From contig JAYJMM010000084.1 of NCBI GenBank assembly GCA_037349105.1, forward strand, positions 1,116,001 to 1,180,000: a stretch of DNA of 64,000 nt, in the 5' to 3' direction. The DNA comes from Limnomonas spitsbergensis (taxonomy: Eukaryota; Chlorophyta; Chlorophyceae; Chlamydomonadales). The first letter of the stretch is position 1. Every line of letters begins with the position of its first letter. The notes beneath the pieces were generated by a model. The model saw only the letters and a program-made list of their open reading frames with translations, searched no databases and was not told where the DNA came from. This document shows, in pieces, positions 5,503-57,700 of the stretch. Both the position numbers and the translations under genes were made by a program.

Positions 5503-8500
5503 TCAAACGGGCGATTTTGCTTTCCCGCCCCGGCCCCCGCCTCGGCCCGCTCCACCCTTCCGACCGCTGCCGCGTCCGCCACCCGCGCCCTTAGGTCCCT
5601 TCTTCACTGCCGGCAGCGGCTGGCGAGACACCAACAACAGGTCGTCCCCCTCCCCAATAAACAAGTCATCGAACGGGCCTGGCCGATTGAATATGTCTGC
5701 GCTCGAGAACTCCGCATACTCTTGCTCGCCCACGTCGTCGGCCCCGAAGAAGCCGTCGTCGTCCTCTTCCTCGCCACCCTGCATCGCCTCGGGGCTTGCG
5801 CCGGCCTCTCTGTCTTGATTCGCTGACGAGCCAGGCTCTGCATGCATTCACAAAGGAATTGTAATCCAGTGATTGGGGTTCAGGATTGGGGTTCAGAGTC
5901 AACGTTTGAGTGCTTCATGGGGTCAATGTTTGGGCGGATGAACCAGTCGGATCTCGTTTTCGGGGATGCCCGCAAGCACCATCTCACTAGACCGGCCTGG
6001 TAATGCACGACATATCAGCGCCTTTGACAGGTTTAGCACGCTACCGGATTGACTCGCGCGCCGTGAGTTTGACAGCTGTTTTTAAAGGTACAATGCTCCG
6101 GAACTCCTGCGTCCTTTATCAAATACTGATTTCTGGAACTGTATCAAATTCTGAAAGCAACGCTGACTCACCCGTTTTGAGTACCCCTTGCCTGCTTATT
6201 TATGGTTCTATATTTCAGGTTGCATCAGCTGCAATTCAGAAGTGTCGTGGCCCACGCCCATGGAGATATGGTGCTAGAAGCTCTGCTGCTTTGGCCACCA
6301 AAGGTGGGCCAGGTTTGGTCCTCGCTAGCCCTATGGTGGCTGCTCAGCGGCTTGCCAAACGTTCCTGGTTCATACTTAAATAGACACTCACCTGCTTCCT
6401 CTCCCTCGCCGGACTCCTCTCCCTCGCCAGGCGCTTCTTCGCCATTCTCCTGGTCGAGCTCCCGCCTGAACCGAGCAACGTCCTCCTCCCCGATCACCAT
6501 TTGGACCTGCGCGGGGGGGGGGGGCGCTCCTTGTTTTCGATTTGTCTTTGAATTTAAATGCATTGCCACGCAGGCCGTCAATTTGAATTACCAGGTGAAG
6601 TACCAGCTCGCAGCTCGTGCCTTCGACTTCAATATCAAAAACGTGAAGGGGGTCCTTGATTCAAATTCGAAATGGTAACGAACCAGCGGACGATTTCTTG
6701 CCGTTAAAAGCAGGTCATCGAACAGAGTGATCCACGCACACCCGTCCAAAGCAGCTGACCGCAGTCCCTCACGCACGAGCACCCTCCTTCGGTCCTTAGG
6801 AAGTGGGACAGCACAAAACAGGACCGACGAAATCTTTGATACCCCCTCCCCCTCACCCTCCCCCCTCCCCCCCTCCCCTCCCCCCTCTCACCAGCTCCAT
6901 CTCGTCCACAGTGTCGTCGTATTCAAAGCGGTACTCGGGCGTCAGTCGCAGCGGGACCCTTTGCCCCATCTCACGGCGCACGTATCTGGGCAGCAGGCCA
7001 AAGCAAAGCATTCCGTCGGTCCGTTAGGCCTGCAGCTGTTACTGTGCTTCAATTTTAGGCAGACCCTAGGGTTCAAGGTTTAGGAATATGCATTCGTGGG
7101 TGTTACATTGCACCCAGCCTTGTTCTGCTCTAAACGTCTCATTCAGTTTTTTGAACCAAACATAATCTTCGACTGTAGATTTGATAACCCTTCCCTCGGG
7201 TATGAAAATAACCATATATTTTAATGCCCTGCCCTCGGGGCAAATTATTTACCAAAATTAAATTAATTTCAGGCTGGACACTGGCGTTGACAATCGATAA
7301 TTAGTATATTCATAATTCATATATACCTCAACAACCCCAAACAACGTTAATTATGAGGGAAGGCGAAGCAAATATACGGTAATTCAAGTTGAGATTACAA
7401 TAAGCTGGACATCTCACAGGGAGGCCGTTGTGAGGTGTCGCATGAGCACGACAGCACCTTATGTTTCGGATGGTGCACACCCTGCTGAATGCATTGTGCT
7501 CGCTGATTGCAGGCGCCAGCGTGGTGACCCTAGGAGTCCGCAAAGGCTTTCAGCCAAACCCTAGGAGTCCACACAGGCTCTCAGCCAAACTGACACGGAG
7601 TGAAAATGGAGCCTGGACAAAAAGTCATATACGGGTACCGGGTTTTACCTTATCAAACCACCGGTATATAAGCATTAGTTATTTCACTGGGTCCAATCAT
7701 TAGCTTAAATTGTTATGTTATATCATTAAAGCATTATCGGTAGGTTAAGGGTAAATATCATAAATACGTAACTTAACTACGGTGCTTATAATTTGTTTCG
7801 TAAATCCGCCCTCCTGCATCACCCCTGCCCAAGCCAGTACCCAAGCCAGTACCCAAGCCAGTACCCAAGCCAGTACCCAAGCCAGTACCCAAGTTAGTAC
7901 CCAAGCCAGTACCCAAGCCAGCACCCAAGCCAGTACCCAAGCCAGTACCCAAGCCAGTACCCAAGCCAGTACCCAAGCCAGTACCCAAGCCAGTACCCAA
8001 GCCAGTACCCAAGCCAGTACCCAAGTAAGTACCCAAGCCAGTACCCAAGCCAGTGCCCAAGTTAGTACCCAAGCCAACACCCAAGCCAGTACCCAAGCCA
8101 GTGACTTCGGCATGATGCAGGATTATCCCATTATAATAGAAATGAAACAGCCAACATCTACGCAGCCTAGGGACTCACGGCTCCAGCTTTTTCAGGTTTA
8201 GGGTTAAGGGCTTGGGGGATCAAGGCTCTAGCTTCTTCAGGTTTAGGGTTTAGGGCTTTGGGACTCACAGCTCTAGCTTCTTCATGTTTAAGGTTGAGGG
8301 TTTAGAGGTTAGGGACTCACGGCTCTAGCTTCTTCAAGTTGGTCATCGCTCGCTTCTTTCCAAAATCGTCGGAGTAGATGGAGAGGTATACTTTCACCAC
8401 CTGCAATAGAAATATAGCACGGGGCGGTGAAATCCAGGGGGGGGGCAACCAGCGGTTCCGGGGCGGGAAATTTTGTCAAAGCGTGTAATTTGCAAACTGG

Positions 8501-14427: not shown

Positions 14428-17400
14428 ATGCTGGGTTCGATTCAAATGCGAAGCGGGGTGGGATCTCGATACTCAGCCCCAAGATGTAGCACGGAGCGCA
14501 CCGTCCTGCCTCGCCTGGCCGCCCGTCTAAAGCGTCCGAGCACATGGATCCGAGCCACAGCGGCCAAAGACGCTTTATCAGCGACGATGCGACTTTTTTC
14601 TCCCTCCAAGGCAAGTTGCCCATGCGCCGCTTCACATCCTCCCCAACCCGTCCATACCCCATGAGCACACTTTTCCACAAACTCGAACCTCAGCTCCTCT
14701 TGACTGCTATTTATGATTGCCACAAGCATGTCAGTGGCCTGCATGCTGCCAGCATGCCAGCATGCCTCCCACACGTTCACCCCCCTAGAGCATATTTTGA
14801 AAAATAGCATAAAACTCGATTTTCTCATCACAGCCTTTCATGAACGGCCGCACCATGAGTTATCCGGTGGTATCTGGTAATTAAGTCTATCAATCAAAGG
14901 CTTTGATGAGAGGCCCGCATGCTGCCAGTATGCCAGCATGCCTCCCCCCTTTGGTTTATCCTCCATGGGCACGCTTGTCACAGCACTCGGACATCAGCTC
15001 TCTCGTCTAAGCCTTTGATTGCTTGCCACAAACATTAGCTATGTGAATATGTCTGATGCCTGAGGCAATCAGTCAGAGGCTGTGATGAGAGGCCCGCATG
15101 CTGCCCGTTTGTGCCAGTATCCCTCCCACCCTTCCGTCCATCCTCCATGGGAACGCTTTTCACAGTATTTGGACATCAGCTCTCTCATCTCAGCCTTCAA
15201 TTGCTTGCCACAAACATTAGCTATATGAACATATCTGATGCCTGAGGCAATCAGTCAGAGGCTTGGATGAGCATGCTGCACGTTTGTGCCGGCATCTCTC
15301 TCACCCTTCCGTCCATCCTCCAAGGGAACGCTTTTCACAGCACTCGGACATCAGCTCTCTCAGCTGCTGACTCATGGTCACTTCACGTATCGGTTGTGCT
15401 GAGAGGCCTACATGAATTTATGATTTCCTTATTTCTGTCCACCATCGTCACGCTTTCGACAGCACTTGAACGTCAGCGCGCTCAGCCCAGTCCTTGATTG
15501 CTTGCCGCATCTTGTACCTGATAGGTCGATCAATCCATCAACTGCTGTGATGAGAGGCCCGCATGCTGCCCGTGAGCCAGCATCCCTCCCACCCTTTCGT
15601 CCATCCTCCATGGGCACGCTTTGGAGACAGACTTCAAGCCTCGGCTCTCTCACACCAGCCTTTGATTGCTTGCCACAACCATGTCAGAGGCCCGCATGCT
15701 CTGCCAGTGGCCAGTACCAGTATAAGCGCAGGACCTCGATAGCTTTTCAGCTGCACTATGATAAAAGTGTGAGGCATCATGGACTCAAGTTTGAGGCAGC
15801 ATGAACGTCTCCACTGACGCATAACTTTTCAGAGTGCGTCAGCTACACCTCAGCTACATTTCAGGGTGTGTCAGCAACATCTTTCCTACATTCCAGGGTG
15901 TGCCAGCTACACCTCTGCTACTTTTCAGGGTGTGTCAGCTACAACTCTGCTACGTCACGGCCTACGGCCCTGGGAGGGCCTGGAGCAACAAGCCCTGAAG
16001 CCTGGGCCACCGGCTGTTGGCCGGTCCCGGTTTCGCACCCACTGACACTGGTGGCCGGCCAGCCGTCAGCGAAACATAATTCCGTGTGTTCCTAAATGCA
16101 TGCGCTGAGACAGGCGGGGCGCATGAGCTCGCTTCAAAGGAATTTGAAGCCCTCTGAAGGAATGTGAAGGTCGAGGTGTTGGGTGTTGGGTGGCCACTGG
16201 CCAGCATGTGAGGCGCATGAGCCCTCTGAAGAAATATGAAGGTTGAGATTTCACGGCTTGGTGGCCTGCCTCACACTTTGGAAAGGCCGAGGGAAACACG
16301 TCAGAAGCATTTAGGAAACCTGCCTCTTGCTTGCTTTCCTGCGCCTATGGCTGAACGCCTCCTTGCATGCTGACCACATGTGTCCTTACTACTTACTTCT
16401 CCACATGCATGCACTTGCCTCTGTATGCCTCCACCAATGCTGGCCACTTGCAGATCAACCCCCTCCTGTCAAAAAGTGAGACTTCTGGTCCGAATTCCGC
16501 CCTACGGGCAGCTCTAAATGAAATCATTGATTCATGCTCCAGGAAAGTTAATGCAAATCTACGGTTCTACACGTACCCCAAATCCTGAACTCTAAACCCT
16601 AGCCACACGCAGGTCAACCTCTTCCTGTGGATATTTTCAAAACTCTTCACCCTAAAACCTAAACTCTTCGCCCTAAACCCTACACTCTTCATCCTTAAAC
16701 CCTAAACTCCTCACCCTTAACCTGTTTTCTACACCCGAAATCCTGTACTTTAAAACCCTTGCCACGTGCAGATCAACCTCTTCCTGCGCGTGGTACGGAA
16801 AAGAGAGGATGGTTACCACGACCTGGCGTCCCTTTTCCACGTAAGGCTGACGGTTTAGGGTTTAGGGTGTCCCTGTTCCACGTAAGGCTGCCGGGCTGGT
16901 GTGCTTCGTGTCTGCGCTTCAGGGCTTAAGGGGCTGGGTGACAATCCTCAATAATGCAGTTTTGTTTTTAGTCTAAGGAAAAGGAACGTCAAAGCTAGTG
17001 TGGTTGCAGAAGTACATTTGCTAATGCCTCGTGTAAGGTTAGGGCTTAAGGTCAAGATTCGGGTTCAAGATTAGGGTTAAGGGTCAAGATTAGGGTTTAG
17101 AGTTGGGTTTTGGATCAGGTGTAGGGTACGGATTAGGGTGTAGGGTTTTGTTTAGGCAAGCTTGGTTGCAGAAGTGCATGCGCTCATGCCCTGCCCGCTG
17201 CTCGCATTCTATAATTTAAGCTTCTTTAAGAAAAAGAATCCAGTATTCCTTAGGGTGCAAGGCTATATCAGCACATGGGCGCGGAAAGAAACCCTAAACC
17301 CAGAACCCTTAACCCAAAATAAGGCATGGCTTGGGCCGGAAAGCACACACCCTCAGCGGTGTCTGGTTAAGTGCGCACCGGACCCCCTTCAGGTGGCAGC

Positions 17401-20400
17401 CGGGTGGCCACTACTGGGCACCGGACCCCCTACTGGGCACTACTGGCCCACCGGCCACTACTGGGCACCCGACCCCAGGTGGCTGCTGGGTGGTCACCAC
17501 TGGGCCGATGATGACGGAGAACTCCATCGGGCTAGGGCCACTGGCCGCTAACCCAAGATCTCCTATGGCCTACGGCCGCTGGCCTGACAGCTTGACCGAC
17601 CAATGGTTGCTGGCCCAAGCGTCTGGGCTTGATGCACTAGGTCTGCTTGCTGAAGGCGGTAATGTAGCTGAATTGTAGCTGAGGCGTGCTGGAATAAACA
17701 GTTCAATTGTAGCAGAAGTGTACTGGGCTAAACAGTGGTGCCTTGCTTTGACAGCGCATGTGTAAGACCGGTGATTCATGTTAGGGTGTCAATCCTTCTA
17801 CCGTAACTGGATATGGTACATGGGCAGCGCTCCACAAAACAGCAATGCCGTTTCAATTCACACGCCTCCTCATTCTGCTGGAGTCAGTGTTCAGGCGTGA
17901 GGTACCGGACCACCGGTATATAGCTTATGGAAGCATTTGGGGTGGCAATTTTTTTTGACTTGAAACTAGAGAGCTTGAAACCTTATTTCTGAAGGTTCCA
18001 GACCAGGGTTGTCGGATCTTGAGCTTCGCCATGTATCCATGTACATGGCAGTAAGAGCTAAAAGCCTGCGGGATTCCTGAAACCATATTCCTGCTTAACT
18101 CAACCCTCCAAATACCTGCAAGCTGAATTCCGGTAACTGAGAGCTCCGCCCGCTGACTTCCCGTAAGTAGATTACCTGCCCAACGCAACCCTACTAGATA
18201 CCAGTACGGCGGTACCTGAAAGCTGAAGTCCTGAAAGCTGAAATCCCCGCCACATTTCCCTGAAAGCTAAATTCCCAGCTTCATTCCTGACAGTGCAATC
18301 CCCCGCTGATTTCCAAAACGCCAAATTCCCCGCTAAATCCCTGTACGCTAATATCCCCACTGAATCTCTAAATGTCAAATTTCCCTCCAAGCTCCCACCA
18401 AATTTCCAGCAAAACTTGTGATCCCGTGCATTGTATAGCCATCGACACTAGCGCCCTTCCTAACCTCTCTCCCCTAGTCCCCTTCCCTGTTACCTCCATG
18501 CACTCATCTCATATAATATTGATCTATCCCTCCATGCATGCATCTCATATAACATTTAATTATTCCTCCATGCACTCATCACCCAGGTGATCGATCTCGG
18601 TGACGACATGGCTTTCAGTGCATTGCCTGAAGGCAGCAGTGAGGACCAGCTATCATGCAGCGACCCCACGATCCCCTCAGATGCCTCCAACCTCGTCATC
18701 AAGGTACTTCAACCCTAAATATGTAGCCGCAGACTTGCCTCCAGTCTGGTCATCAAGGTACATCAACCCTTAGCCCTAAACCCTAATAGGCATCAAGGTA
18801 CCCGCAGCGCGGCAGCGTCACATCAGGGTTTGTCGCCAAGATGAACGTGCACAAACAGGATTGCAAACTAAATGCTGGAACGAGACAGGATGTGCGTGCC
18901 ATCCCTGGGTAGACATGGACCGTGTGCTGAAAAGGCAGGTTGATGCGATGCGGCAAGGTTTGGTCGATCGGTCCCCACCGGCCCAGTGGTCGCTGACCAG
19001 CGGCCTGCCTAAGGCAGGGGTCATCCACTGCCGCACTTGCATCAGCACTGCTGAGGCCTAGTCACGTGCAGGCCCTGAACCTTATGTCAGAGCCATCTGG
19101 CATTAGCACCGCAAGTCAGTGATATCTTACATAAGCACTGACATAAACCACGTCAGGGTCTTCCACTTCACCCTTAACCCTTAACCCTAAACTGCGTCAG
19201 GGTCTTCGACTGCCAGACTTACATGAGCCCTGCTGCGGTGGTCTTACCCGCAGGCCCTGAACCTGTTCAGGAGCAAGACCGGCGTGAAGACACACTTTGC
19301 CATCAGCCTGGAAAAGAAAGTGCCGCATGGTGAGTGGGAGAGGGAGAGAAAGTGAGAGAGAGGGAGAACAAGGGAGAGAGGGAGGGAGAGAGAGTGGGAA
19401 GGAGAGAGAGAGAGAGGGAGGGAGGGGGGGAGAGAGGGAGAGGAGAAAAGGAAGAGGAGAGGGAGAGGGAGGGAGGGGGAGGGGGAGGGAAGGGAGGAAG
19501 AGGGAGGGAAGGAGAGGGAGGGAGAGGGAGGGAGGGAGAGAGGAAACTACTCCGTGTCTTACTTACTGACAGACAGATCCAACCTTCAACAACGGCTCTC
19601 TGTATTCACACTGTATTTTCACACTCCCCCGCTTCTGTTGCAGGTGCCGGGTTAGGAGGTGGCAGCGGCAACGCGGCCACGACACTCTGGGCTGCGAACG
19701 AAATGACGGGCCGCCCCGCCTCTAACGAGCAGCTACTGGAGTGGTCAGGCGACATCGGCTCCGACATCAGCGTCTTCTTTAGCCGGGGTAGGTTATCCCA
19801 AATGCGTACATAAGCATGCACACATGCATGCACATAAACATGCACACATGCATGCACATAAACATGCACACATGCATGCACATAAACATGCACACATGCA
19901 TGCACATAAACATGCACGCATGCATGCACATAAAGATGCACACATGCATGCACATAAACATGCACACATGCATGCACATAAACATGCACACATGCATGCA
20001 CATAAACATGCACACATGCATGCACATAAACATGCACACATGCATGCACATAAACATGCACACGCACCCACACACACATGCACATGCACACATGCATGCA
20101 CACATGCATGCACATAAACATGCACACATGCATGCACATAAACATGCACACATGCATGCACATAAACATGCACACATGCATGCACATAAACATGCACACA
20201 TGCATGCACATAAAGATGCACACATGCATGCACATAAACATGCACACATGCATGCACATAAACATGCACACATGCATGCACATAAACATGCACACATGCA
20301 TGTACATAAACATGCACACATGCATGCACATAAACATGCACACATGCATGCACATAAACATGCACACATGCATGCACATAAAGATGCACACATGCATGCA

Positions 20401-23400: not shown

Positions 23401-26400
23401 CATAAACATGCACACATGCATGCACATAAACATGCACACATGCATGCACATAAAGATGCACACATGCATGCACATAAACATGCACACATGCATGTACATA
23501 AGCATGCACACATGCATGCACATAAACATGCACACATGCATGCACATAAACATGCACACATGCATGCACATAAACATGCACACATGCATGCACATAAACA
23601 TGCACACATGCATGCACATAAACATGCACACATGCATGCACATAAAGATGCACACATGCATGCACATAAACATGCACACATGCATGCACATAAACATGCA
23701 CACATGCATGCACATAAACATGCACACATGCATGCACATAAACATGCACACATGCATGCACATAAACATGCACACATGCATGCACATAAACATGCACACA
23801 TGCATGCACATAAACATGCACACATGCATGCACATAAACATGCACACATGCATGCACATAAACATGCACACATGCATGCACATAAACATGCACACATGCA
23901 TGCACATAAACATGCACACATGCATGCACATAAACATGCACACATGCATGCACATAAACATGCACACATGCATGCACATAAACATGCACACATGCATGCA
24001 CATAAACATGCACACATGCATGCACATAAACATGCACACATGCATGCACATAAACATGCACACATGCATGCACATAAACATGCACACATGCATGCACATA
24101 AACATGCACACATGCATGCACATAAACATGCACACATGCATGCACATAAACATGCACACATGCATGCACATAAACATGCACACATGCATGCACATAAACA
24201 TGCACACATGCATGCACATAAACATGCACACATGCATGCACATAAACATGCACACATGCATGCACATAAACATGCACACATGCATGCACATAAACATGCA
24301 CACATGCATGCACATAAACATGCACACATGCATGCACATAAACATGCACACATGCATGCACATAAACATGCACACATGCATGCACATAAACATGCACACA
24401 TGCATGCACATAAACATGCACACATGCATGCACATAAACATGCACACATGCATGCACATAAACATGCACACATGCATGCACATAAACATGCACACATGCA
24501 TGCACATAAACATGCACACATGCATGCACATAAACATGCACACATGCATGCACATAAACATGCACACATGCATGCAATAAACATGCACACATGCATGCAC
24601 ATAAACATGCAACATGCATGCACATAAACATGCACACATGCATGCACATAAACCATGCACACATGCACTGCACATAAAACATGCCACACATCGATCGCAC
24701 ATAAAACATGCACAACATGATGCCACATAAAACATGCACACTGCATGACATAAACATGCACACATGCTATGTACAGAAAACATGCACACATGCATGTACA
24801 TAAACATGCACACATGCATTTCACATAAAAGTATGCCACACGATGCATGCACTAAAAAAAAGATGCACACATGCATGTACATAAAACTATGCACACATTG
24901 CATTGTACATAAACATGCACACCATGCATGCTACATAAACATGCACACATGCATGCACATAAACATGCACACATGCATGCACATAAACATGCAAACATGC
25001 ATGCACATAAACATGCACGCCATGCATGCACATAAAACATGCACACATGCATGCACAAACCATGCACACATGCATGCACATAAACATGCACACATGACAT
25101 GCATCATAAACATGCACACATGCATGTACATAAACATGCACACATGCATGCACATAAACATGCACACATGCATGCACATAAACATGCACACATGCATGCA
25201 CATAAACATGCCACATGCATGCACATAAACATGCACACATGCATGCCACATAAACATGCACACATGCATGCACATAAACATGCACACATGCATGCACATA
25301 AACATGCACACATTGCATGCCATAAACATGCACACATGCATGCACATAAACATGCACACATGCATGCACATAAACATGCACACATGCATGCACATAAACA
25401 TGCACACATGCATGCACATAAACATGCACACATGCATGCACATAAACATGCACACATGCATGCACATAAACATGCACACATGCATGCACATAAACATGCA
25501 CACATGCATGCACATAAACATGCACACGCACCCACACACACATGCACATGCATGCCCCCCCCTCACACACACCCACACACACATGCACACGCATGCCCCC
25601 CCCTCACACACACCCACACACACATGCACACGCATATATATGCACGTGTCAATTAATGCGCACATGCATTCATGCATAGGCAAGCACCTGCACCTGCGTA
25701 TGCACTCCTTGGCCACTCACTTGCATGCACATGCACATGCTTTCGCACTTGGATGCACAAGCTCTGACACATGCCCTGCCTACACACACACACACACATA
25801 CTTAGGGTTTAGGTCAGGTTAGGATAGCTTAGGGTTTAGGTTCACACACAGATGTCCCCCTGCCTGCATGCCAGGCTGCCCACACACACATTCTACCTTG
25901 CTGCTAACTGCAACTCCGCCATTCATCCATTCGGTTCAAAATAGGTGCGGCCTATTGCACCGGGCGCGGAGAGATCGTGGAGGACGTGGAACCCCCTCTG
26001 CCGCTTTCTACACCGATCTTGCTGGTGCGGTACGGGCAGGGCTGGTGCAGTACAAGCAGGGGTGGTGTTGTTGGTGCGGTACGGGCAGGGCTGGTGCAGT
26101 TCAAGCAGGGCTGGTGTTGCTGGTGTGAAACAGGCAGGGCTGTTGCATGACAAGCAGGGCTGGTGTTGCTGGTGCAGTACGGGCAGGGCTATTGCAGTAC
26201 AAGGAGGGCTGTTGTTGCTGGTGCGGTACGGGCAGGGCTGGTGCAGTTCAAGCAGGGCTGGTGTTGCTGGTGCGGTACGGGCAGGGCTGGTGCAGTACAA
26301 GCAGGGCTGGTGTTGCTGGTGTGGAACAGACAGGGCTATTGCAGTACAAGCAGGGCTGGTGTTGCTGGTGCGGTACGGGCAGGGCTGGTGCAGTACGAGC

Positions 26401-29350: not shown

Positions 29351-30511
29351 AGCAGGTGGCCCCAGCGATCATCACTGGCCATGCAGGGTTTGCTTGACAG
29401 GTGCCTTTTGGCGTTTACGTGGGCTGTGCAGAAACAAAAACCTCTCATTCTGTGCATGGGTTATCTGAATCAGTGTCTGGGGTGTCAAGTTGTGTGGAGG
29501 GGGAGGGGCGCATAGGGGCCGCGCATCTTGGGGATGTTATCAGGACAATTGAGGGACGTTCTTCATATTTTCGAACAAACGGACATCATGCAGGTTTAAG
29601 ATTTTCTACCATATCCAGTGAGAGGACTAGCAGTGGGATGTGGCCACTGTGGATGGCATGAGTGCTGTGCGCTGCTCTCCTCTTCCTCTCGACCTCTTTC
29701 GATTCTCTGGGGCGTGGAAGGTATACTTTCCACGACTTGTCCCTCAACATTGGGCGCCCTTGTTCCTGCACTCCTCGCACAGGAGGATGGCATGGCAGCA
29801 TGGTCCTGGCTGTGCATGGCACCTGGAGTTGAGCTTAGTCATTTTCTCCCAGCCCCAGCGGGTATGCACCTTACTTAACCTCACATGGGCCGTGTATTCT
29901 ATAGGCTACGATGAATCACGACTGTCCTTTACACGGCGACCTAACAAGTACCATGCGGACACTTCTTCGTGATTAACATGCGGACAGCCAGACACAAGGG
30001 GCATGCGGACAGTCAGGCACATCAGCAAATCATCCTCTATCCTACGTCGAAAAGCTTGGCTGAAGTGGGCCATCAGGCTGCCAGACACTTCAAACCGGTT
30101 GAGGCCCTGCACCCCAGCACTTCGTTTGGGGCCTTCAAATCAGAGCCGATCAGTGGCCCAGGAGTTTGTCCATCGCCTCGGCCTCCGCCTGAAGCCGCAT
30201 CAAGTACTGCGCAAGAAAACACACATATTTAGGGTGGTGCATACCCGCTCCAACCCCAGTATTGAAGGTGGTGCAGGCCCGCTCCAAACAACAGGAACAC
30301 ACGGTTTGACCTAAATTCCATCTCCCGGCAAAATAACATGCTAGGGTATTTCATTTATTTCTCGAAGCCGCATCAAGTCCTGCACAAGAAAACAAAGGAA
30401 TGGACCACAAAATCACATTGTGGCACAGAGGCCTAGGTCGTTTCATTTACTTATTCAAGACGCTTGAAGCAAGCAGGATGCAGTGCAGTTTGCGGTCCTG
30501 TACACGAAAGG
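29351..30511. other. convergent intergenic region, no gene seen
   Basis: The region lies between the 3' ends of ISPE (+) and the gamma-CA-like gene (-). It holds short duplications (GACATGCGGACAG-type repeats near 29,970-30,010; GGTGGTGCA(T/G)(A/G)CCCGCTCCAA near 30,235 and 30,268; CGAAGCCGCATCAAGT.CTGC near 30,190 and 30,365). I see no supported coding sequence. Confidence 0.5.
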
Positions 30512-35815: not shown

Positions 35816-38800
35816 ATGGGGAAGAAGAAGCAGCCCGGCGACCAGCAGAAGCTGGAGGATATGGACAAGAACGCTGATAAGAAGAAGAAGCAGAAGGTAA
35901 TAGCAGTGGGATGAGCTCCACAATCCATGCATGCCGCTGACAGCCCGATCGTCCATGCACGCCACTGATAGGCATGCACAGCCTCTTGGATAACGCGGTC
36001 CCCCATGCAAGCAAACATGCATGCAGACAACAAGCGGGGCCAGCCACCACCATTTAAAAGATATTTGACTCCCTCATGTGATCAATCACACAAACAGTGT
36101 GGTTTGAGCAGCAACACGCATGACCCATTCACAGTTTCACACCCATGAGGCCCTGACACTCTATTTTGTGTGCCACCCGTGCCGCCCCCCCCCCCAAACA
36201 CACACACTTAATTTCTCGAGGAGTATGGTACCAATTCCCTCTCTACTCCCCCTCTCTGCTCCCCCTCTCTACCCTCACTACCCCCTCCCCACACACTCCC
36301 TTTACCAAGGAGAATGGTACCAACGCACTCTCTACCCCCCCCTCTCTTACCCCACTGCCCCCCTCACATACTGTTTCTGACCATGCAGACGTGCTACACA
36401 ACATTTCCACAACACCACACTACAGCCCACTTCACCTCCCTTGCTCCGTCTCCCCTGCCTCCTCGGCCACTCCCGTTATTTCTGTACTGTCCCGTGGTCG
36501 TTCCACGGTCTCCCTCCGCCTCCTCTTTTCTATCCCAGCCTCCACAGTCCACACCACACCTGCCACTTCCACCTCCTCTCCTTTTTCTTTCTTCTGCCTA
36601 AATGTCTCCCGCTCTGGAGCAGCAGTACGGCTGACCCGCCCGTGACGACATGGGAGGCAATGTGTAAGGTGCCTGTTGATCCCGCCTAAAACATTTGGCC
36701 CCCCCCTCCTCCCCTCCCCCCCCCCCTTACCCCCCGCCTCCCTTCTCTTCCTCGTCCCAATCAGCAGCAGCAGAATTGGCATGGCCGGGACGACGTTGGT
36801 GGCAGCAATGTGCGAGGTGCCTGTTTATCCCGCCTGAAACATGTAGCCCTACCCCCCCCCCTGCCCCTGCTCTTCCTCATCCAGCTCAGCAGCAGTAGCG
36901 GCGCCGACGCGACTGTGGCCAGAAACGACGACGGTGACGATGCACAAGAGATGCTGCTGTTGAAGCTCATGAACAAGCTCGATAAAGCCAAGGACCCGGA
37001 CAAGAGGGCCTTGATAGAGGCCAAGCTAAGCAAGCTGCTTGAGGGCATGCGCAGGTCAGTGAATACTGTCTGTGACTCAGCTTAAGTTCAGCTACGTTTC
37101 AGCTACATCATGGAATTCATGGCCCACTATCAAAAAGGCCCTGATAGAGGCTAACCTGAGCAAGCTGTGTGAGGGCATGCACAGGTCAGTGAATACTGTC
37201 TGTGGCTCGCCTGCACGTCAGCTACATTTCAGCTACTTCCAAGCCTACAGCCAGGAGGATTTTAATGGGGGCCAGGTTTGGCAAACCTGCTTGTGGGATG
37301 CGCATGTCAGGGAATATGAAACCCTCAACCCCAACACTACTTACTCTGCAACCTAGAACCAACAAAAATCCTTCATCGGTAACCCTAACCCTAAACCCTT
37401 TTCCCAGTCAAAGCAAGATGTGCATCCCAACCCATGCTTCCCCATGCTTCCATGTCAGTGTTTATTTCAGTGCGCTTCTGCCACACTTCAGCTACAGCCC
37501 AGCCCATGGCTGCCAGGTCTGGGTGCAGCATGCCTTGTTTAGGGTTAAGGAATTGGGTGGACCAGCTGCCAGGTCTGTGTGCAGCATGCCTAGTTTAGGG
37601 TTTAGGGATTGGGTGGACCGGCTGCCAGGTCTGTGTGCAGCATGCCTAGTTTAGGGTTTAGGGATTGGGTGGACCAGCTGCCAGGTCTGTGTGCAGCATG
37701 CCTAGTTTAGGGTTTAGGGATTGGGTGGACCGGCTGCCAGGTCTGTGTGCAGCATGCCTAGTTTAGGGGTTAGGGATTGGGTGGACCAGCTGCCAGGTCT
37801 GTGTGCAGCATGCCTAGTTTAGGGTTTAGGGATTGGGTGGACCGGCTGCCAGGTCTGTGTGCAGCATGCCTAGTTTAGGGTTTAGGGATTGGGTGGACCA
37901 GCTGCCAGGTCTGGGTGCAGCCAGCCCTGCGCCTGCTGCTGTCGCCACCGGCTGAAGGCAGGTCAATGTCTGCAGCCTATCCGTCCAGTGCTGTCCCCAT
38001 GGATTTGTGGTGGTCACTGGTTATGAGTCGTAACCCAAGTGGTGACCAAATTATTAATTTGGCTGAAAGCCGAGGTTCAGTCGCACGGTCACAAGAACAA
38101 GTTCAAATAAATTTGGATTGGGAAAATTTCGGCGCAAGCGACAGCGCGCTTTCGCCCTGTATGGACCCTTCTGGTAGCCAAACAATTATCCCAAGAGCCA
38201 CTAGATTTAAAACTGGGTGCCTCAAGATGGCCTGGCGCACACTTATGTAGACTATGCTGCCTGCCTGCCTGCCTGCCTGCAGGAATGCAGGAATGCCTCA
38301 GCTAATGATACCTATTTCAGTTATTTAACAGTTGCATTATAGTTGGAGCATTATAGAACCGGTAAGAGCACCTAACTATGATGCTCTTAGTTCACGTGGA
38401 GCATTTCAAGGGAACGGAGCAACGCCGTTGGCAGCAGCCCTCCCCATCCTTGCCTCCCCGCTGCCCAACAGGGAGGCCTCAGCAGCCGCAGTCGCCGCGG
38501 CAGCAGCGGCGGCAGCTGCAGCGAAGAAGGCCAAGTCTACTTTCCATTTCAAGCCCTCGACGCCGGCTGCGGCGTCCTCGTCCTCGTCGGCGCTGGGGGT
38601 GCTCCCGCTCACGGCACAGGAGCGTGCCATGAGGCAGCAGCGGGCGCAGCGCTTTCAAGTGGACCCTGCCGCGGGCGATGGGGACGAGGTGCGGTGGGGT
38701 GTTTAAAAAAATGATAACCAGCAGTTAGAGAATTAAGAAGAGGGGACTGCATCCCCAGATGGTGCAGGAGCGTACCACGAGGCAGCAGCGTGTGCAGCGC

Positions 38801-41800
38801 TTCCAACCGGGACACGGGGGATCACGGGGGTGAGGTGCAGCGGGTGTGCTTCTTTTAAATCAGAGCAGTAAAAAGCCGGGGGGGGGAGAGCCTTGAGGCA
38901 GCATGCCGCGTGTGAAGCGCTTCCAAGCAGGCCCTAGCACGGAAGATGGGGACGAGTGCGACACATGACCCAAGAGCTTGACTGGCCGACATGGGATCCT
39001 TCCAGGCGGACCCTGAACCCCGACCCTAAACCTGTAATCCTGGGGCCCTTCCAGGCAGTCCCTAAACCCTGAACCATAACCCTAACTTTCACACTTACCC
39101 TTGACTCTAAGCTGATAACCCTTGACTCGTAAACCTAAACCCTGACGCCCTTCCAGGCGGACTCTAAACCCATAAGGCCATAACCCATGACCCGACACCC
39201 TAACCCCTGTGGCTCTTTCAGGCGGACCCTAAACCCTTAACCCTTTACTCTTAACCCTATCCCTAAGCCCTAGGGGGCTTCCAGACAGGATGTGCGGAAA
39301 GGCCTAATAAAATTAGGCCTACGGGGGCGTTAAGGAAATAGTGCAGCATGGGTGCAGGCTGTGTCCTCACCGTTACTGTTGGCTGAGTACAAGCATGCTG
39401 CGGGGCATCAGTGCCACTGATCCCGTGCCTCCACATACCGTAGATCCCAAAAACTTTTTTCCTAAAGCGTATTGTGGTGCGACTAAAAGGATGAGCAAAG
39501 TTAGCACCTACTACCGATTCCATTGCATGCCCACTGTTCCGTACCGCCCCCCCCCCTGCTGTACAGGGTGGAGCTGTACTGCTGCGTACCGCACGACGCG
39601 GAACGTGTGCCGAGATAGAAAAGGAATATCTGCGGCTGACCAGCTTGCCACGGGCGTCTGCTGTGAGGCCGCCTCCGGTGCTCAGGCTCGCCCTTGCGCT
39701 GGTCAAGGCAAGATGGGCACAGGCATCCGACTACAAATACGCATGCGAGCAGCTCAAGTCCATACGCCAGGTGAACGGAGCTAGATTTAGGCTGGAGTTC
39801 ATCAAGTTATAGGCCCCTTGCACTGGTCAAGGCGAGATGGGCACAGGCTTTGGAATCGGAACATGCATGCAAGCAGCTCAAGTCCATACGCCAGGTGAAC
39901 GGATCTAGATCTAGGCTGGTGTGGATCTAGATCTAGGCCTCTCGCAGAGGTAAGGGCGGGATGGGTGCAGGCATCGGACATGAGGTGCGCTTGCCAGCAG
40001 CTAGAGTTGATATGCCAGGCGGGCAGATCCATATATAAATCCAAGTATGTATATACATAGGTTTAACTGGATCTCAATGTAGGCCCCTTGTACTGCTGAG
40101 GGCAAGGTAGGTGCAGGCATTCGACTACAAGTACCGAAGTACGTGTGAGAGCAGCTCCAGTCGATTCAACAGAAAAGTGGATCTAGATCTGGGCATACCT
40201 GGATCTGGATCTAGGCATAATGGGCTGGTTTACGTGAGGTGGGTGAAGGCACTCGAAAAAACATACACGTGCAAGTACCTCCAGGTGTTACGCCAGATGG
40301 ATGGATCTAGATCTAGGTGCACATGGACCCTGATCTAGGCCCACTGCGCTGGTCTAGGTGAGGTGAATGCAGGTATCGGACAGAACGTATGCGTGCAAGC
40401 AGCTCCAGGTGATACGCCAGATGGGTGGATCTAGATCTAGAGGCATATGGATCTTCATCTAGGCCCAATGTTCTGTTGGAGGTGAGGTGGGCGCAGGCAT
40501 CCGCCCAGAATATGAGCGCGAGCAGCTCAAGTTGCGGTGTCAAATGGTCGAATGTAGATCTACGCTGACATGGATCTGGATCTAGGCCCAATGTGCTGGT
40601 CTAGGCGGGTGGGCGCAGGCATCCAACATAAGTACCCGCACCACACCGCTCAGCAATACAGCATGTTCTGTCACTTGTCCCAATCCAAACATTGACCCTA
40701 GACCTTTCCATCCACAAACCCTAAGCCCTAAACCTTGACACTAAACCTCTCCATCCTCAAACCCTAAACCCTGCCACCTGAAATCCCCACTCCGTTCTCC
40801 ACGCGGAACACCGTCGATCCTAGCACGCGAAGTCTCGTCACCTCCCAACACAATTTTTCGCGGGGGTTTGGATTCTAGGGGTCAGGCTTCCCTGCCGTCC
40901 CTCCTCAAAAGCCACGTCTTCCAGCGTCTTTCAATACATTTCTTTCTTCCTTGCGCCGCTCTGTCAGGACCTGATGGTGTCGCATGTACGTGTCGCCAGG
41001 GGTTTGGTTTCGCCTCTGGTTTGCCACACAAAAAACCTGAACGCCCCCCACACCTTGAGCCAGGACCTGGTGTTACAGATAACCGACCTCACCAGGGAAT
41101 CTGGTTTCGCCTCAAGTCCTCAGCGATTCAAAGCCTGCCCCCTCACCCCCCCCCCCCACACACACTCTCGCCGTCCATCGAGACCGGGCAGTGCACATTG
41201 TATCGGTGAAAGTGTCCCCAAACCTCTCTGCTGGTTTCACAAAGCTCTGGAGTAAATCCTGAAGGACCTCCAATTCCACACACCCCCAGAACCTGCCTGT
41301 GCAGCATGTCAGCTATCACGCCAGCGGTTCATCACAGACAAAGGTTAACTTTCTGATCAATTTTATTAGACAATGATTTTCAGATGTATTCCACAAGATA
41401 ATGACGGCCATAACACAATGATAAATGTGTTGTTAGATTATCATTTTTTCTTCTTCTATATCTTGATTGAGCCCCTTATTGATAATAACAACGTCCGGTG
41501 ATCAAAAAGTAAAGTGCGAGCGACATGCTAACATCGACGTTCCGCCAAGCCCTCAAACCCAAACCCTGAACACGTCCCCCTGTCATGACCTGACTGTATA
41601 GCACTCTCATGGTTTAAGGTTTAGGCACTGAACCCTAACTATGCCTGACTGTATAGCACTCTCATGGTTTAAGGTTTAGGCACTGAACCCTAACTATGCC
41701 TGGCTGTATAGCACTCTCATGGTTTAGGGTTTAGGCACTGAACCCTAACTATGCCTGACTGTATAGCACTCTCATGGTTTAAGGTTTAGGCACTGAACCC

Positions 41801-44800
41801 TAACTATGCCTGACTGTATAGCACTCTCATGGTTTAAGGTTTAGGCACTGAACCCTAACTATGCCTGACTGTATAGCACTCTCATGGTTTAAGGTTTAGG
41901 CACTGAACCCTAACTATGCCTGGCTGTATAGCACTCTCATGGTTTAGGGTTTAGGCACTGAACCCTAACTATGCCTGGCTGTATAGCACTCTCATGGGTT
42001 AGGGTTTAGGCACTGAACCCTAACTATGCCTGGCTGTATAGCACTCTCATGGGTTAGGGTTTAGGCACTGAACCCTAACTATGCCTGACTGTATAGCACT
42101 CTCATGGGTTAGGGTTTAGGCACTGAACCCTAACTATGCCTGACTGTATAGCACTCTCATGGGTTAGGGTTTAGGCACTGAACCCTAACTATGCCTGACT
42201 GTATAGCACTCTCATGGGTTAGGGTTTAGGCACTGAACCCTAACTATGCCTGACTGTATAGCACTCTCATGGGTTAGGGTTTAGGCACTGAACCCTAACT
42301 ATGCCTGACTGTATAGCACTCTCATGGGTTAGGGTTTAGGCACTGAACCCTAACTATGCCTGACTGTATAGGACTTGCATGGTTTGGGGCTTAGGCACTG
42401 AACCCTAACTATGCCTGGCTGTATAGCACTCTCATGGGTTAGGGTTTAGGCACTGAACCCTAACTATGCCTGACTGTATAGCACTCTCATGGTTTGGGGC
42501 TTAGGCACTGAACCCTAACTATGCCTGGCTGTATAGCACTCTCATGGGTTAGGGTTTAGGCACTGAACCCTAACTATGCCTGACTGTATAGGACTTGCAT
42601 GGTTTGGGGCTTAGGCACTGAACACTGACTTAGCCCGTTCGAGACAGATGCCCACATAACAATGTACTGAAACCCGCCAAACCTCAACCCCAGGACGGCA
42701 GTACGCCTGAGAAAAAATGCTAAAACCCCAAACCCACGATGCCCCCCCACACTATTTACTAAACCAGTGCTGTGCAGTGGCGCAATAATTCAGAAATCGT
42801 GAAGCCATTGCGGTCCCTTGCGTGTAAAAGTAGCTCGTTTGCCTCAGAATCACGGTGGCTGCAACCAGCTATGGATTCAGCCGCCGAAAGGACCATCATC
42901 AGCACAGCAAGGTTTCAAACCCGAACCCTGAATGCCCCCCTCCCCCCCTTTTAGGACCTGACTGTGCAGCACATACGCGACGAGCTGACCGTCGATGCGT
43001 ACGAGACGCATGCCCGCATCGCCCTGGAGGAGTCCGATATGGCAGAGTTCCGGCAGTGTCAGGGCGTGCTCAAGCGCCTATACCTGGATGGGGTAAGTAG
43101 TCAGGATTGGGGTGCTGGATTCAACGTGGACCAAAAGCATGTTTGAGCGCCTGTACCTGGATGGAGTGAGCAGCTATACCTGGATAGGGTGAGCAGCTGT
43201 ACCTGGATGGAGTGAGCAGCTATACTTGGATGGCTGGATGGGGTGCTGATGCGCCTGTACTAGGATAGGGTGGGCCTGAGCCCATGCTCCCTGCAACACT
43301 TACTGAACCTGACCTGGATGGTGTGCTCAAGCGCCTGTACCTGGATGGGGTGAGTAGTTTGCACGGGGCGGGCCTGGGCCAATACTCCCTGCCCTACCTC
43401 CTTTACCTGACCCCTGGATTGCGTGCTACAGCGCCTGTGACTGGATAGGGTGAATTGTTTCTATGAGATGTTTATGGGCCCATACTCCCTGCCCCGCACT
43501 TATCTTTCACCGTATTTCCGTACAGTACCGTTTGGCTGTATATCCGCACCGGGTAATTCTGGCAGGTACCCGGCAACAAGAAGGAGTTTGCAGCCTGTGA
43601 CCTGTTTTCGCCCAATCAACCAGCAAGGGCATGGTGCAGGCCCTGAACACCTACACCCTTACCCCTCGTAGGTACCAGGGTTACCCAGTACGGTCGTTTG
43701 GGCCCAACTCCCGTACCGTTTGCCGTACTGTACCGCATCGTTTAACAAAACATACAAAACACTGTATCGTCCCTTTCTTACCAGTCCTTCATTTTGGCCG
43801 TACAGTACCGTTTGGCCGTACGGTATTTCTGTATCGGGTAACCCTGGCACGTGGCAACAACGAGGAGTTTGCAGCCTGCGGCCTGCTCTTTGCGAGGTCA
43901 ACTGGCAACGGCAGGGTGCTAGCCCTGCACACCTTAACCCTTACCCCTCGCAGGTACCCGGCAACAAGGAGGATTTTGCGTCCTACGGCCTGCTCTTTGC
44001 CAAGTCCACCGGAAAGGGCAGGATGCTGGCCCTGAACACCTTAACCCTTAACCCTGAACCCTAGCCCTGCAGGTACCTGGCAACAAGGAGGAGTTTGCAG
44101 CCTACGGTCTGCTCTTTGCCCAATCAACCGGCAAGGGTAGGATGCTGGCTGCGGAGCTGCCAATTGAGGACCTGAAGCACCCAAGCGTTGCGCACGCACT
44201 GGCAGTGTGCAGGTGAGTGTTTGTGTAAGGGTGTAAAGGTTAAGGGTTGACAGTTATAGCCATAAGGCCTAAATTTTTAACACTAGACCCTTCAACCTCC
44301 TTCACAGGGCATGCCGCCTCGGAGATTTCCACTCCTTTGCCTAGTTTAGTGGCCAGCTCTACCGTATAGACGTATCTCTTAAACCTTTAACCTTAGCCCT
44401 TATTGTCCACAGGGCATGCCGCCTTGGAGATTTCCACTCCTTTGCCTAGCTAAAGCGGGCACTTTTAGCCGGAAGCCCTAATTTCCCAACCCTATACCCT
44501 TCTCCTGCATAGGGCATGCCGCCTCGGAGATTTCCACTCTTTTGCCCGGCTCTACCGGTCAGCCCCTCGCATGTCACCTTATTTGATGGACCGCTTGCTG
44601 CCACGAATGAGAATTTGGGCTGTGCAGGTACGAGTGGGTGGGGGGGACAGCGACGTGCCGCTGACGGTCGTTACGATAGCTGAATAACGTAGCTGACTTT
44701 CAGTCACCTTAATTTCATGGCAAATTCAGCTACTATTACCTGTAAGGCTGTAAGGCACTGTTATTACTTACCCGATTTATGAATTACTGCACAGTGTAGG

Positions 44801-47400: not shown

Positions 47401-47528
47401 CATGTCATGCAAATTGCCAAGTATGATGATCAGGCCCACAGCAGCAAGGCCTCAAGGAAGGTTCAGCCCTCATCCTGAATGACAGGAAAGCAGAACCTTC
47501 GTAGCCTGACGCCTTCGGTTTTGTCACC

Positions 47529-49416: not shown

Positions 49417-49633
49417 CTTGAAATAAGGATCTCTGCTGTTGAACTCTGTGTGCAAAACTGCTGTCACAGTCACACTTCTGTGCTTTCTCTGATTGTCTGT
49501 GAAGTGTGTTTTCACACTTCTATTGCCTTTTAAAGTGGCTGCTTTGTCTCTTGCAGCCACTATTTCTTTCTCACTTGAAGCCCTGATTTCGTAATCACCC
49601 TTTAATCTGAAGTTATATAGTCACTCCTCATCG

Positions 49634-51955: not shown

Positions 51956-51958
51956 CTG

Positions 51959-53950: not shown

Positions 53951-54716
53951 ACAAGAAGTCCGCAACAGCCGTAGCAAGAAGCTCCCCTAGATCAACCCCG
54001 CTGTGCCTGCTGAAGGTTCCAGCAGTGGCTTCAGATGGGAATGCCTTAGAGGACTAGCGGGTCTGGTGCACACTGACACAAGCAACGCAGTCGAATAGAC
54101 GAATAAGTACTGGTTGCTACGGTATGGTACCTAGTTAATAATAAAATAAAATTATTGTTGATCCCATCCTGTCCACAGGACCTTCTCTGTCCCAGTTCAT
54201 AGGAGGCAGCAGACTAAACTCAAACAACAGATGTGCATTTGAATAGCTGTTCCTACTGGTCTGCTAGGTAGGATATTAAAATACGGTGCGGGTGGTACCG
54301 TAAATTGTGTTTACTCATTTGCGTGGCTGGCTTGCATTCCATAGCTGGCCTGCTAGGGTCTATGGCTGTGATCTCTATTGCATCCGTAATATAAATGCAG
54401 AGGTATGCTCCCAGCGTGCGCGCACACTGGTATGCTGACGACCCTCATAATGATGTGTTCGATGTGGCTGTCTGATGTGGCTGTCACACGTGCAATCACC
54501 GTACACATTGTGTGCTTAGAACAAACCGAGTTCTGGGATACCGAACACGCCCACAATTCTCGAGCTAAGCAACGGAATCTTAATTCTTTCACCCAAGCGA
54601 CCAACCGGGTAGTGGAACCAAAACACACGACGTTGTGACAAAACTCACCGATGGACTGCTGCTCGGACCTTTCGGAAAGGATTTGAAAAGGTTGTGCTGA
54701 AGCCGTGGCAACAACG

Positions 54717-57700
54717 ATGGACGATTGGGATGACCTCGGGCTGGTGGGCAGCGTCTGCGACCTGGCATTAGCGGAGCTGGTAGTTGACGCGGCCAGTCTG
54801 GTGGACGCCCCGGAGGAAGTACGTGAGGCTTCAAAATTTCCTCCCGACCGCATCTCACAGGGCACAATCTGGGCAACCCTTCCAGCCCCGTTAGTGTCAC
54901 CCTGCCGCCCATGCGCAGTTGGGCGGTCATGCCCCGAGTCAAAAACCCGAATATATCTTCATCCATGCAGCGATGCACTTTAGGTTGCTGCATGTCTCCA
55001 CACAGGCCTGCATCCCCGATCCCGACTGGGCCTAGTCCCCCCCTGAAGCATGCTATGTCTCCCTCACGTGCGCCATCTGCAGGCGCCTTTCACACGCACC
55101 TCCCACACGCACCACTCACAAGTGCCACTCATGCCACTATTACACACCCCTCCCATGCATTCCTCTCGTGCATGTTTCCCAATCTCCCATGCACTTCTCC
55201 CGTGCGCACCTCTCATGCATCCCTTGGTCTGCAGGTTGTGGCCAGCTGGGACCCTATGGATGATGCGCAGAAGGAGCCGCCGGCCTACACGGTGGTCCAG
55301 GTCTCGCCCTTTGAGCTCGCCGTCGTGCAGGAGGCCGCGCCTGTTGCTCGGCCTCAGAAGAAGAAAAGGAAGGAGAAGCCAAACGGCAGCCGCCTGCCGA
55401 AATGGCAGCCGTTCGCCCGCGGGAAGAGCTTGGAGAGCTCCCGAGGGGCCTTTGTCGGGACGTTCCAGCGCCGCGCTCAGCAGGCCTCCAGCGCACATGA
55501 CAAGTTCAAGACCAGCAAGCTGCCGACAATGGGCCGCACCCTGACAGATATCCTCCACAAGCAACGTAAGCTAGGCTGGCAAACCCTGGACCATAAACCC
55601 TATTTCCTAAACCCTGAACCCTAAACGCTTCACCTTGAATGCTGACAGATATCCAGCACAAGCAATGTAAGCCAGGCAGGCATCCCTGAACCCGAAACCC
55701 TTCACTGAAAACCTTGGACGCTGACAGAAGTCCTGCGCAGGCAGCGCAAGTTTGGCCGGCGAGTGCGCGCCACGCTTCAACAACAACAGCTTCAAACATC
55801 ATACGAAACAGCATCAAATGTACTGCACGACGCCCCTGATGCTGTCCGTTATTGGCTTCGAAGGCATACCCTCACCCTCCCTCCCTCACACCTCACCCGC
55901 ACACTCCCTCCCTCCCTCTCCCCTCTTCCCACACTCCCTCACTCCTGACATTCCCTCTCTCATTCTTCTCCCTCACCCTCACTCTCCGCCCTCCCTACGG
56001 TCGCTCCCTCAACCGCAGCGTCCATTCGACCGCGGCCCCGGCGAAAGCCCAAGAGCCGTTACGGTCAGAGCTATGCCAAAAAAAGCGTTGCAGTCTCCCC
56101 CAAGAGGCAAGGTGGCAAAAGTACAAAAAAGTACGTTGCCGAGGAGCAGGATCAGAATGCTGCATGGCTGCAGTCTGTGATCAAGGGGCCTGCAGAGGGG
56201 CTCTCTGAAACAGATCGGGCAGCCGAAGCGGCGGTGGCGGCGGCCGCCGCCGCTGCAGCGATGCTGCCGATGGAGTGTGAGGGCATGCCTTTGATGGTGG
56301 GTCCGGACGGGGAGGATCTGATGCAGGTTCAAGCGGGTGTGACGGAGGCGATGCTCATTGCCGAGCTCAAGGAGCTGGATGCGATGCGGCTGGTGTTGGC
56401 CGAGGTCGGCGGCAGGCCCTCTGGCCTCGACAGCATCGCGGCTGCAGAGGCGCTGGCGGACGTGCAGCAGCGCGCGCTGGCCAGGCTGAACGCGGTGGCG
56501 GAGCTGGAGCGGCGGATGCAGTCGGCGCAAGATGCGGTGGAGGCGTCAGCCGAACAGATGCGTCGGGCGCTCGACGCGGGCGGCGGCGGCCCGCCGCTGA
56601 CGATGGCCGAGGCCATCGTGGCGCAGCCGCCGGCGAATATCATAGACATCGCGTTTGAGCACGGCGCGATCGATCGGGCGGGGGAGTTACCAGCCGGCGG
56701 CGGTTACAGCGATTACGATCCGGCGGACGCGCTGTTCGCCTCTGGCGGTTACATGAACAGCATAGAATACTCCGACGCACGCGAGCAGGCGGTGCAGACA
56801 TCAGCCCAACAATCAGCCTACGCCCCCGATTTTGCCGCCGGCGCCTCGCCGAGTAGCTACCGGCCTGTTGACGCGATCGGCGGCTTTCTTGAGGCGCGCC
56901 AGCAGCGCTCGCGGCACATCGGCCAGCAGCTGCAGCGGCTTCAGGAGGAGAGCCGGCGCCTGCAGGAGCAGAGCACGCTGCTGACGGATCGCGCCATGGA
57001 GATGCAGCGGGCGGCGGGAATCTGGGTGGCGCCAAAGCTGGTGTATGCGGTCCCAGCCCCGCCGGCTTATCCCGCAGCCGAGGCGGCAGGGCAGCAGGAG
57101 CAGCAGCAGCACCCCCAGGGCCGCCGCGACCAGCAGAGGAGCGACCCAGGCAAAGGGAAGGACGGCCGTGCGCCGGCCGCCGGGGACGGGGCCGCGGGCA
57201 TCAGCTATGATGAGGGCGTCTTCGTGGACGAGGGAGACTCGATGCCAGCGGTGGTTGTGGTTAGCAATGCGGCTCCCAAGGGGGCTGCGATTTCTTGGAG
57301 CATGCCAGCTAGGCATCAGCCTGCTCAGAAGCAGGGCCTGCCTCCTCCGCAGACAATTGCCAAGGTAGGTGGGTGATATATGATAAAAGGATGACAGTGG
57401 TGAGCATGCCAGCCAGGCACTAGCCCGCTCAGAAGCAGGGCCTGCCACCACCACAGTCAATTGCTAAGGTGGGTGGGTGACATCTTTTAGACCTGCCATA
57501 TCCTGGCCTGTGGCTAGAGGGGCCTGGTGCAGTCGGACCTGACGCATGGACCGCCGGCTTTAGGCCGGTCAAAGGTTGGTCCTCATTGGCCCAGTCATCG
57601 CTGCCCAGCGACCTGCCGATTGTGGTCTAGCTTGCAAACAAAAAATAATTACTTTTACTGAACGGTATCCTTCATCAGTATTTCTCCTAAACTGGTGCTG

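Follow-up and report, generated by a model that had tools for sequence, protein, structure and literature searches.

Copies of exon edges in the introns of the green alga Limnomonas spitsbergensis and their probable origin by recurrent short tandem duplication

The stretch of DNA analysed here, called the window below, comprises 64,000 nucleotides of the green alga Limnomonas spitsbergensis (contig JAYJMM010000084.1, positions 1,116,001 to 1,180,000) and contains several genes whose introns carry copies of the edges of the adjacent exons, splice site included; we refer to these copies as echoes. Gene models rebuilt from the sequence gave eight exons for IspE, eight for a THP3-like gene (SAC3/GANP), six for CAL and three for RBFA, the last two on the minus strand and RBFA being incomplete. 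The IspE, THP3-like, RBFA and CAL models match the Pfam profiles GHMP_kinases_N, SAC3_GANP, RBFA and Hexapep above the cut-offs; against the DCTN5 profile, the score of CAL is below the cut-off. Joined from the window exons, the IspE protein shares 78% identity along its entire length with a protein of Chlamydomonas eustigma, a species placed in the same clade as Limnomonas together with two Antarctic strains (PMC11228838). Splice sites, reading frame and Pfam matches agree for the four models, and for IspE the relatives agree as well. The earlier note, which first drew attention to the echoes, had counted five complete genes. Of these, RBFA is represented by three exons only, and the fifth, a Gln-rich gene, was only read by eye and enters no count. 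For the whole genome a mean intron length of 788 bp is reported, and IsoSeq data exist (PMC11228838).

For every internal edge of the four homology-checked genes, 40 nt of exon and 8 nt of intron were aligned to the edge's own intron and to the introns of the other three genes, which provided 8 to 36 controls per edge. A copy scoring above every control was found in the own intron of 24 of the 42 internal edges. The mean score was 16.1 in the own intron, 8.4 in the controls and 8.7 on the reverse complement, where the maximum was 11. Two more edges, the IspE acceptor at 16772 and the RBFA donor at 8320, could also be aligned to copies. In these alignments the start of an exon is duplicated upstream, usually with its AG, and the end of an exon is duplicated downstream with its GT. 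Exon-edge copies in the exons' own introns are therefore real. The copies described in the window are the following (fractions are identical over aligned positions; TRF, Tandem Repeats Finder):

8164..8320, minus strand: RBFA exon 3 donor echoes; 3.6 copies of a 45-52 bp unit by TRF, with telomere-like filler; 103/126; real donor edge at 8320.
16440..16468, plus strand: IspE exon 1 acceptor echo, 14 nt of intron and 15 nt of exon start, AG intact; 25/29, spacing 318; real acceptor edge at 16772.
AG at about 16611, plus strand: second copy of the IspE exon 1 acceptor; 52/63, spacing 162.
16866..16894, plus strand: IspE exon 1 donor echo (exon end followed by GTAAGGCTG); 26/29, GT intact, at a spacing of 41 from the real donor (16841).
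18727..18770, plus strand: IspE exon 2 donor echo; 37/44, spacing 52, GT intact; own score 23, control maximum 11.
26019..26438, plus strand: array of 8.6 copies of 49 bp starting at the IspE exon 5 donor edge (TTGCTG followed by GTGCGGTACGGGCAGG); the aligned unit includes only about 6 nt of exon.
26728..26909, plus strand: IspE exon 6 acceptor echo, an abutting 117-bp tandem unit; 45 nt of exon and 139 nt of intron, 144/185; real acceptor edge at 26984.
27197..27272 (ends taken from the alignment), plus strand: IspE exon 6 donor echo; 58/77, spacing 100, GT intact.
30364..30394, minus strand: CAL exon 6 acceptor echo; 29/31, AG intact, spacing 173.
31160..31570 (approximate), minus strand: CAL exon 5 acceptor echoes; four scored, at distances of 136, 255, 372 and 479; real acceptor edge at 31046.
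32736..32825, minus strand: CAL exon 3 acceptor echo; 68/90, spacing 104, AG changed to AA.
37131..37239, plus strand: THP3-like exon 2 donor echo; 91/109, 54 nt of exon and 55 nt of intron, spacing 130, GT intact.
39815..40623, plus strand: THP3-like exon 4 donor echoes in a 124-bp unit (124 bp also by TRF); 173/225, six copies scored.
41546..42630, plus strand: degenerate copy of the THP3-like exon 5 acceptor edge (48/65, AG lost), then an array of 18.9 copies of 55 bp.
43137..43460, plus strand: THP3-like exon 5 donor echoes; seven copies scored.
43566..44042, plus strand: start of THP3-like exon 6, copied over up to about 77 nt in a 107-bp unit, upstream of the real exon at 44073; 158/197, three scored, at distances of 74, 181 and 476.
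44251..44460, plus strand: start of THP3-like exon 7 copied twice, with an in-frame stop in the copy that scores best; real acceptor edge at 44513.

The generality of the pattern was assessed in a wider sample drawn from the genome (260,226,709 bases in 124 contigs), where profile searches gave 72 exon matches for chaperonin (PF00118) and 139 for kinesin (PF00225). Eight of 40 kinesin stretches were taken, picked because they had several exon matches and not because of echoes. Pairs of exons were passed over when the gap in the profile or the distance was large, and for two pairs no splice solution was obtained. From 22 loci 53 introns were modelled, three of which were excluded for a low score or margin; the 50 others were combined with 21 from the window, and one short intron yielded no edges. 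Two loci (L046 and L047) were left out, and a close paralogue (L038) was kept in the counts of edges and copy scores but out of most others. With exon-only probes of 45 nt and a score of at least 14, a copy was found for 45 of the 140 edges from 23 genes, against 0.39 expected from 11,876 shuffled pairings of edges and introns and two on the opposite strand. Outside the window alone the proportion was 29 of 98 edges. At least one edge with a copy was present in 15 of the 23 genes, the extremes being six of eight edges (L052) and none of ten (L036). A test on the raw ends of exon matches, an edge set that was later replaced by the splice-modelled one, had placed 37 of 196 edges above all controls, with 42 scoring at least 14 against two in reverse.

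Copies go with longer introns: they were found for only 1 of 30 edges when the intron was shorter than 300 bp, for 11 of 42 between 300 and 600 bp, for 17 of 32 between 600 and 1000 bp, and for 9 of 18 and 7 of 18 in the two classes of still longer introns. Recurrent tandem duplication across exon-intron junctions, in association with longer introns, is thus supported in the 15 genes with copies. The suggestion that the process can seed minisatellites holds as well, given the six copies of 82 bp in one sampled locus (L049) and the 49-bp array at 26019. The supposed 19 copies of one edge correspond to the 18.9-copy array of 55 bp (41589-42630); the array exists, but its match to the exon start is only about 16-18 nt and its units lack the AG. 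Decay with distance is a tendency only, the nearest copy being the best in 21 of the 34 edges with several copies, against 12.9 expected.

The polarity described for the echoes is confirmed. Among 27 internal exons, nine start copies and eight end copies with a score of at least 15 were on their own side and none of either kind on the wrong side; at a score of at least 13 the figures were ten and nine against two and zero. That the functional copy is always the one joined to the exon body is true merely by construction. Both rules follow from the geometry of tandem duplication and purifying selection on the exon, and we therefore do not take polarity as the sign of a special mechanism.

The distance from an exon edge to its best copy has a median of 141 (quartiles 111-226, tenth to ninetieth percentile 82-376, extreme 2336). 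Most copies lie 50-400 bp away. Units that abut each other were found at IspE exon 6 (117 bp), THP3-like exons 4 and 6 (124 and 107 bp) and RBFA exon 3 (52 bp). On the intron side the copies reach over a median of 26 nt (quartiles 13-55), compared to 25 nt (11-55) in a neutral simulation described below; in view of this match we rejected the idea that copies are specially cut short where they meet the junction. Edges are not the only places with duplications. When 48-mers from introns outside arrays were searched for local copies with a score of at least 17, 16.7% had a direct copy and 0.9% an inverted one. In two stretches taken as intergenic, direct copies amounted to 5.7% and 4.2%, and in a third to 4.2% outside arrays. 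Nuclear introns of this alga hold many short direct duplications, some of them plainly abutting and tandem.

The decay of the copies is neutral. Mismatches between exon and copy occur at frequencies of 0.121, 0.099 and 0.203 at codon positions 1, 2 and 3. This fits an exon in which mainly third positions change, alongside a copy free to change throughout. Stops are present in 6 of 43 copies and frameshifts in 5 of 43. A coding role of the echoes was rejected on these grounds, positions 1 and 2 changing at 0.10-0.12. The splice dinucleotides fade like the neighbouring sequence: identity is 0.88 for the donor GT, against 0.91 in the exon flank and 0.75 in the intron flank, and 0.69 for the acceptor AG, against 0.83 and 0.60. 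In small numbers, donor echoes keep GT in 14 of 16 cases and acceptor echoes keep AG in 13 of 26. This is only suggestive of a higher cost of upstream decoy acceptors than of decoy donors, and with such retention a strong purging of decoy splice sites was rejected.

One pair of chaperonin paralogues (L037 and L038; C39 and C99) allows a comparison in time. They are identical at 940 of 1060 exon bases, all four introns are at identical positions in both, and large parts of the introns can no longer be aligned. One exon edge has different copies in the two genes: the 329-nt intron of L038 has three by eye (two scored), and its 227-nt counterpart in L037 has one short copy (21 nt, below the threshold) followed by telomere-type filler. 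This suggests that duplication went on after the gene duplication. With introns that have lost so much of their alignment, the pair is a useful clock for intron turnover.

Telomere-type sequence was defined by the CCCTAAA unit, either perfect or allowing one mismatch in every ten bases; CCCTAAA/TTTAGGG arrays are present at 5 of 10 contig ends sampled. In 67 introns, counted without most of the 6157-nt IspE intron, it covers 3.9% of the bases, about tenfold the 0.4% obtained after one dinucleotide shuffle, and it occurs in 28 of them. No such sequence was found among 9,069 exon-end bases, and cover is 0.4-1.0% in three window stretches taken as intergenic. Besides one-base variants, the modelled introns contain 10 occurrences of CCCTAAACCC and 8 of GGGTTTAGGG, in agreement with the unit at the contig ends. 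The idea that copies are often bridged by CCCTAAACCC-like sequence can be kept only in so far as those 28 introns hold some of it: it makes up 6.8% of the spacers between exon and copy and 5.3% of the rest of the same introns, and a specific telomere-repeat bridge was rejected. The insertion of telomere repeats at a staggered break, with duplication of the flanks, is a described event (PMC7215372). The interstitial telomeric sequences reported there resemble ours in that the repeat of the contig ends is found in introns, sometimes between duplicated flanks (as in the L037 intron), and is absent here from the tested exon ends. They differ in that our telomere repeats are not concentrated between the copies, and in that the intron share of the human sequences is given as compatible with random insertion, whereas the introns of Limnomonas look enriched over three intergenic stretches.

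We consider it likely that these introns grow by short tandem duplications that recur, probably through the filling-in of staggered breaks during repair, and that the junction copies are a by-product. Where a duplication extends across a junction of exon and intron, the copy still attached to the exon body is kept functional by purifying selection; the other, together with its splice site, lies in the intron, decays neutrally and is sometimes a member of an array. The duplications would be born tandem, by fill-in of staggered breaks of the Pol alpha/CST type or by patch repair, and the same repair setting may also allow the insertion of telomere repeats. Introns presumably tolerate the outcome and exons do not, hence the lengthening. 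Fill-in is preferred because it yields direct duplications of this kind and shares its setting with telomere-repeat insertion: CST-Pol alpha fill-in gives small tandem duplications (PMC8355091), and in rice short tandem duplications arise from the repair of staggered breaks or nicks (PMC7971508). Of the interpretation first offered for the window, recurrent duplication across junctions is retained and the telomere-repeat bridge is dropped, and polarity needs no special process.

This explanation was confronted with the neutral simulation, in which tandem duplications fell at random, exons were conserved, units were drawn from the observed spacings and the rate was fitted to the number of clusters, other rates being run as well; indel, deletion and exon rates were guessed and transposon turnover was not modelled. 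With the fitted rate, the simulation gave 1.25 repeat clusters per intron, against 1.27 observed. Several points weigh against our explanation. Clusters touching an edge were 48 of 85, compared to a simulated fraction of 0.17-0.19, and 9 of 28 at an identity of at least 0.90, compared to 0.09-0.19. The ratio of edge to interior copies was 2.6-7.7 (gene-level bootstrap, lower bounds at least 1.9), when 0.85-1.1 was simulated, or elsewhere up to 1.45. At an identity of at least 0.85, 13 of 18 edge clusters and 17 of 30 interior ones consist of pairs that do not abut, which means that filler, deletion or copying from a distance is involved too. Eight of the 23 genes have no edge copy at a score of 14. 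The RBFA-IspE interval at 12.1-16.4 kb, which is not proven to be intronic, has direct copies for 30% of its 48-mers, which means that dense duplication is not restricted to proven introns. Telomere-type sequence is, as said, not concentrated between exon and copy, and both tandem birth and break repair are argued by analogy with other systems.

The excess at edges calls for a closer look, because it bears on the possibility that duplication is targeted to junctions by splicing- or transcription-linked breakage, R-loops or nucleosome boundaries, making them hotspots at several times the intron rate. We regard such targeting as unlikely. It is favoured by the bootstrapped ratios of edge or junction probes given above and by the 18 of 48 clusters (identity at least 0.85) that span an edge, when 3.9 are expected under uniform placement, or a fraction of 0.13-0.19 in simulations; a survey, too, found significantly more tandem repeats near intron-exon junctions, notably in Chlamydomonas reinhardtii and Volvox carteri (PMC3887541). 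Against it, the intron-side extents fit uniform placement, and intron 24-mers lying 12-108 nt from the junction were not richer in copies than deeper ones at a score of 18 and only slightly so at 14 (about 0.15-0.24 versus 0.08-0.18). The per-position excess is 1.6-7.7 fold overall with arrays masked or collapsed, and 2.0-7.6 fold with interiors matched by intron; it falls to roughly 1.5-1.8 (an estimate) in a 24-mer profile without collapsing, and disappears (0.67-0.89) when array positions are counted unaltered. Moreover, real intron interiors may be younger than those of the model, which has no transposon insertion. An excess of copies at exon edges thus likely exists, with a size that depends on the handling of arrays; its cause may be exon-biased breakage, a faster turnover of intron interiors or real targeting. 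Within the repair explanation, breakage and repair of this kind might be commoner at junctions or exon flanks than inside introns, and this would explain the share of the excess that the model does not produce. A bolder version seems to us quite improbable. It would make the junctions of this lineage true hotspots at which staggered breaks are mended by the telomere-linked machinery (CST-Pol alpha fill-in together with telomerase), a repair that would duplicate edges into introns, insert telomere repeats and act as a main engine of the long chlamydomonadalean introns.

Replication slippage and unequal exchange in existing minisatellites could do without break repair altogether. Arrays are indeed common: the 67 introns hold 16 with at least five copies, and about 12.5 of 59.8 kb disappear when these are cut down to two units. 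Yet only 6 of the 34 multi-copy edges have five copies or more, the aligned echoes mostly extend over 29-225 columns, and a start from unique exon sequence would not be easy by this route. Slippage is better suited to the growth of arrays than to the first birth of duplications, and as a sole explanation it is unlikely. That echoes are alternative exons or spare splice sites under selection has in its favour the GT kept in 24 of 34 donor copies and the AG kept in 34 of 67 acceptor copies, with 16 and 30 of them, respectively, at or above the weakest functional decile; but the codon pattern of one free and one constrained copy, the stops and frameshifts, and the intermediate identity of GT and AG between exon and intron flanks make it very unlikely. 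Introner-like or other mobile elements would also spread repeated units with splice sites through many introns. Their involvement was rejected, and is hardly credible, as the copies match their own exon and not the introns of other genes, the shuffled expectation being the 0.39 mentioned above against 45 found. Finally, the assembly was made mainly from PacBio long reads (PMC11228838), and tandem repeats are prone to misassembly. An assembly or consensus artefact is nevertheless extremely unlikely: the copies mostly show 2-30% divergence from their exon, they are present in 15 of 23 genes spread over many contigs, and paralogous introns have different ones.

Several known systems come close to the likely explanation of recurrent tandem duplication. 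Among the cited routes of intron gain is tandem duplication that takes splice sites along, as in a potato RdRp gene (PMC4974935) and in Drosophila (PMC2891723). As here, a short duplication includes splice sites and one copy becomes intronic; there, a new intron is created, whereas in Limnomonas existing introns hold extra copies of an edge, often several and in many genes. The potato study also mentions an 83 bp duplication within an intron that left the gene structure unaltered (PMC4974935). The duplications made by break or nick repair (PMC7971508, PMC8355091), for which abutting units of about 50-200 bp would be expected, share with ours the direct orientation, some abutting copies and, broadly, the range of unit sizes; many of ours do not abut, and they seem to be in excess at exon edges. 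The junction repeats of Chlamydomonas and Volvox (PMC3887541) are likewise in introns of green algae and biased to junctions, but are not described as exon-edge copies in the passages of that survey available to us, unlike those reported here. In the one open-access library searched, we found no account of exon-edge copies spread over a large part of the introns of a genome. Short tandem duplication as such is already known, and what is new is its density, the possible excess at junctions and the company of telomere repeats.

For Chlamydomonas and its relatives, a set that does not include Limnomonas, the advantage of long introns is described as unknown and the driver of their length as probably ancient (PMC8226300). 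The echoes make intron growth visible: since selection holds one copy of each pair in place, old duplications can still be read. They also leave the introns full of near-functional decoy splice sites (the 16 donor and 30 acceptor copies of functional strength). With this load, the existing IsoSeq data could be used to test what splicing errors cost and how one of two twin splice sites is chosen. If the excess at junctions proved true genome-wide, it would point to a connection between gene architecture and break repair.

Some other features of the window may be mentioned. The IspE exon with the GLGGGSG motif (19644-19787) lies directly 5' of an array of 238 copies of 24 bp (96% matches, 19814-25555), which makes up most of the 6157-nt intron between two coding exons. 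The segment 12100-16400 is dense in direct repeats of 93, 144 and 182 bp. Interspersed GTACCGTACGG-rich elements with CAGGGTTACCC-like inverted ends were seen by eye at 43676-43850, 48251-48310 and 49320-49420, one of them within a THP3-like intron, and look like small inverted-repeat transposons. A foldback with two inverted arms of nearly 50 nt, also noticed by eye, is found within an IspE intron at about 27630-27905.

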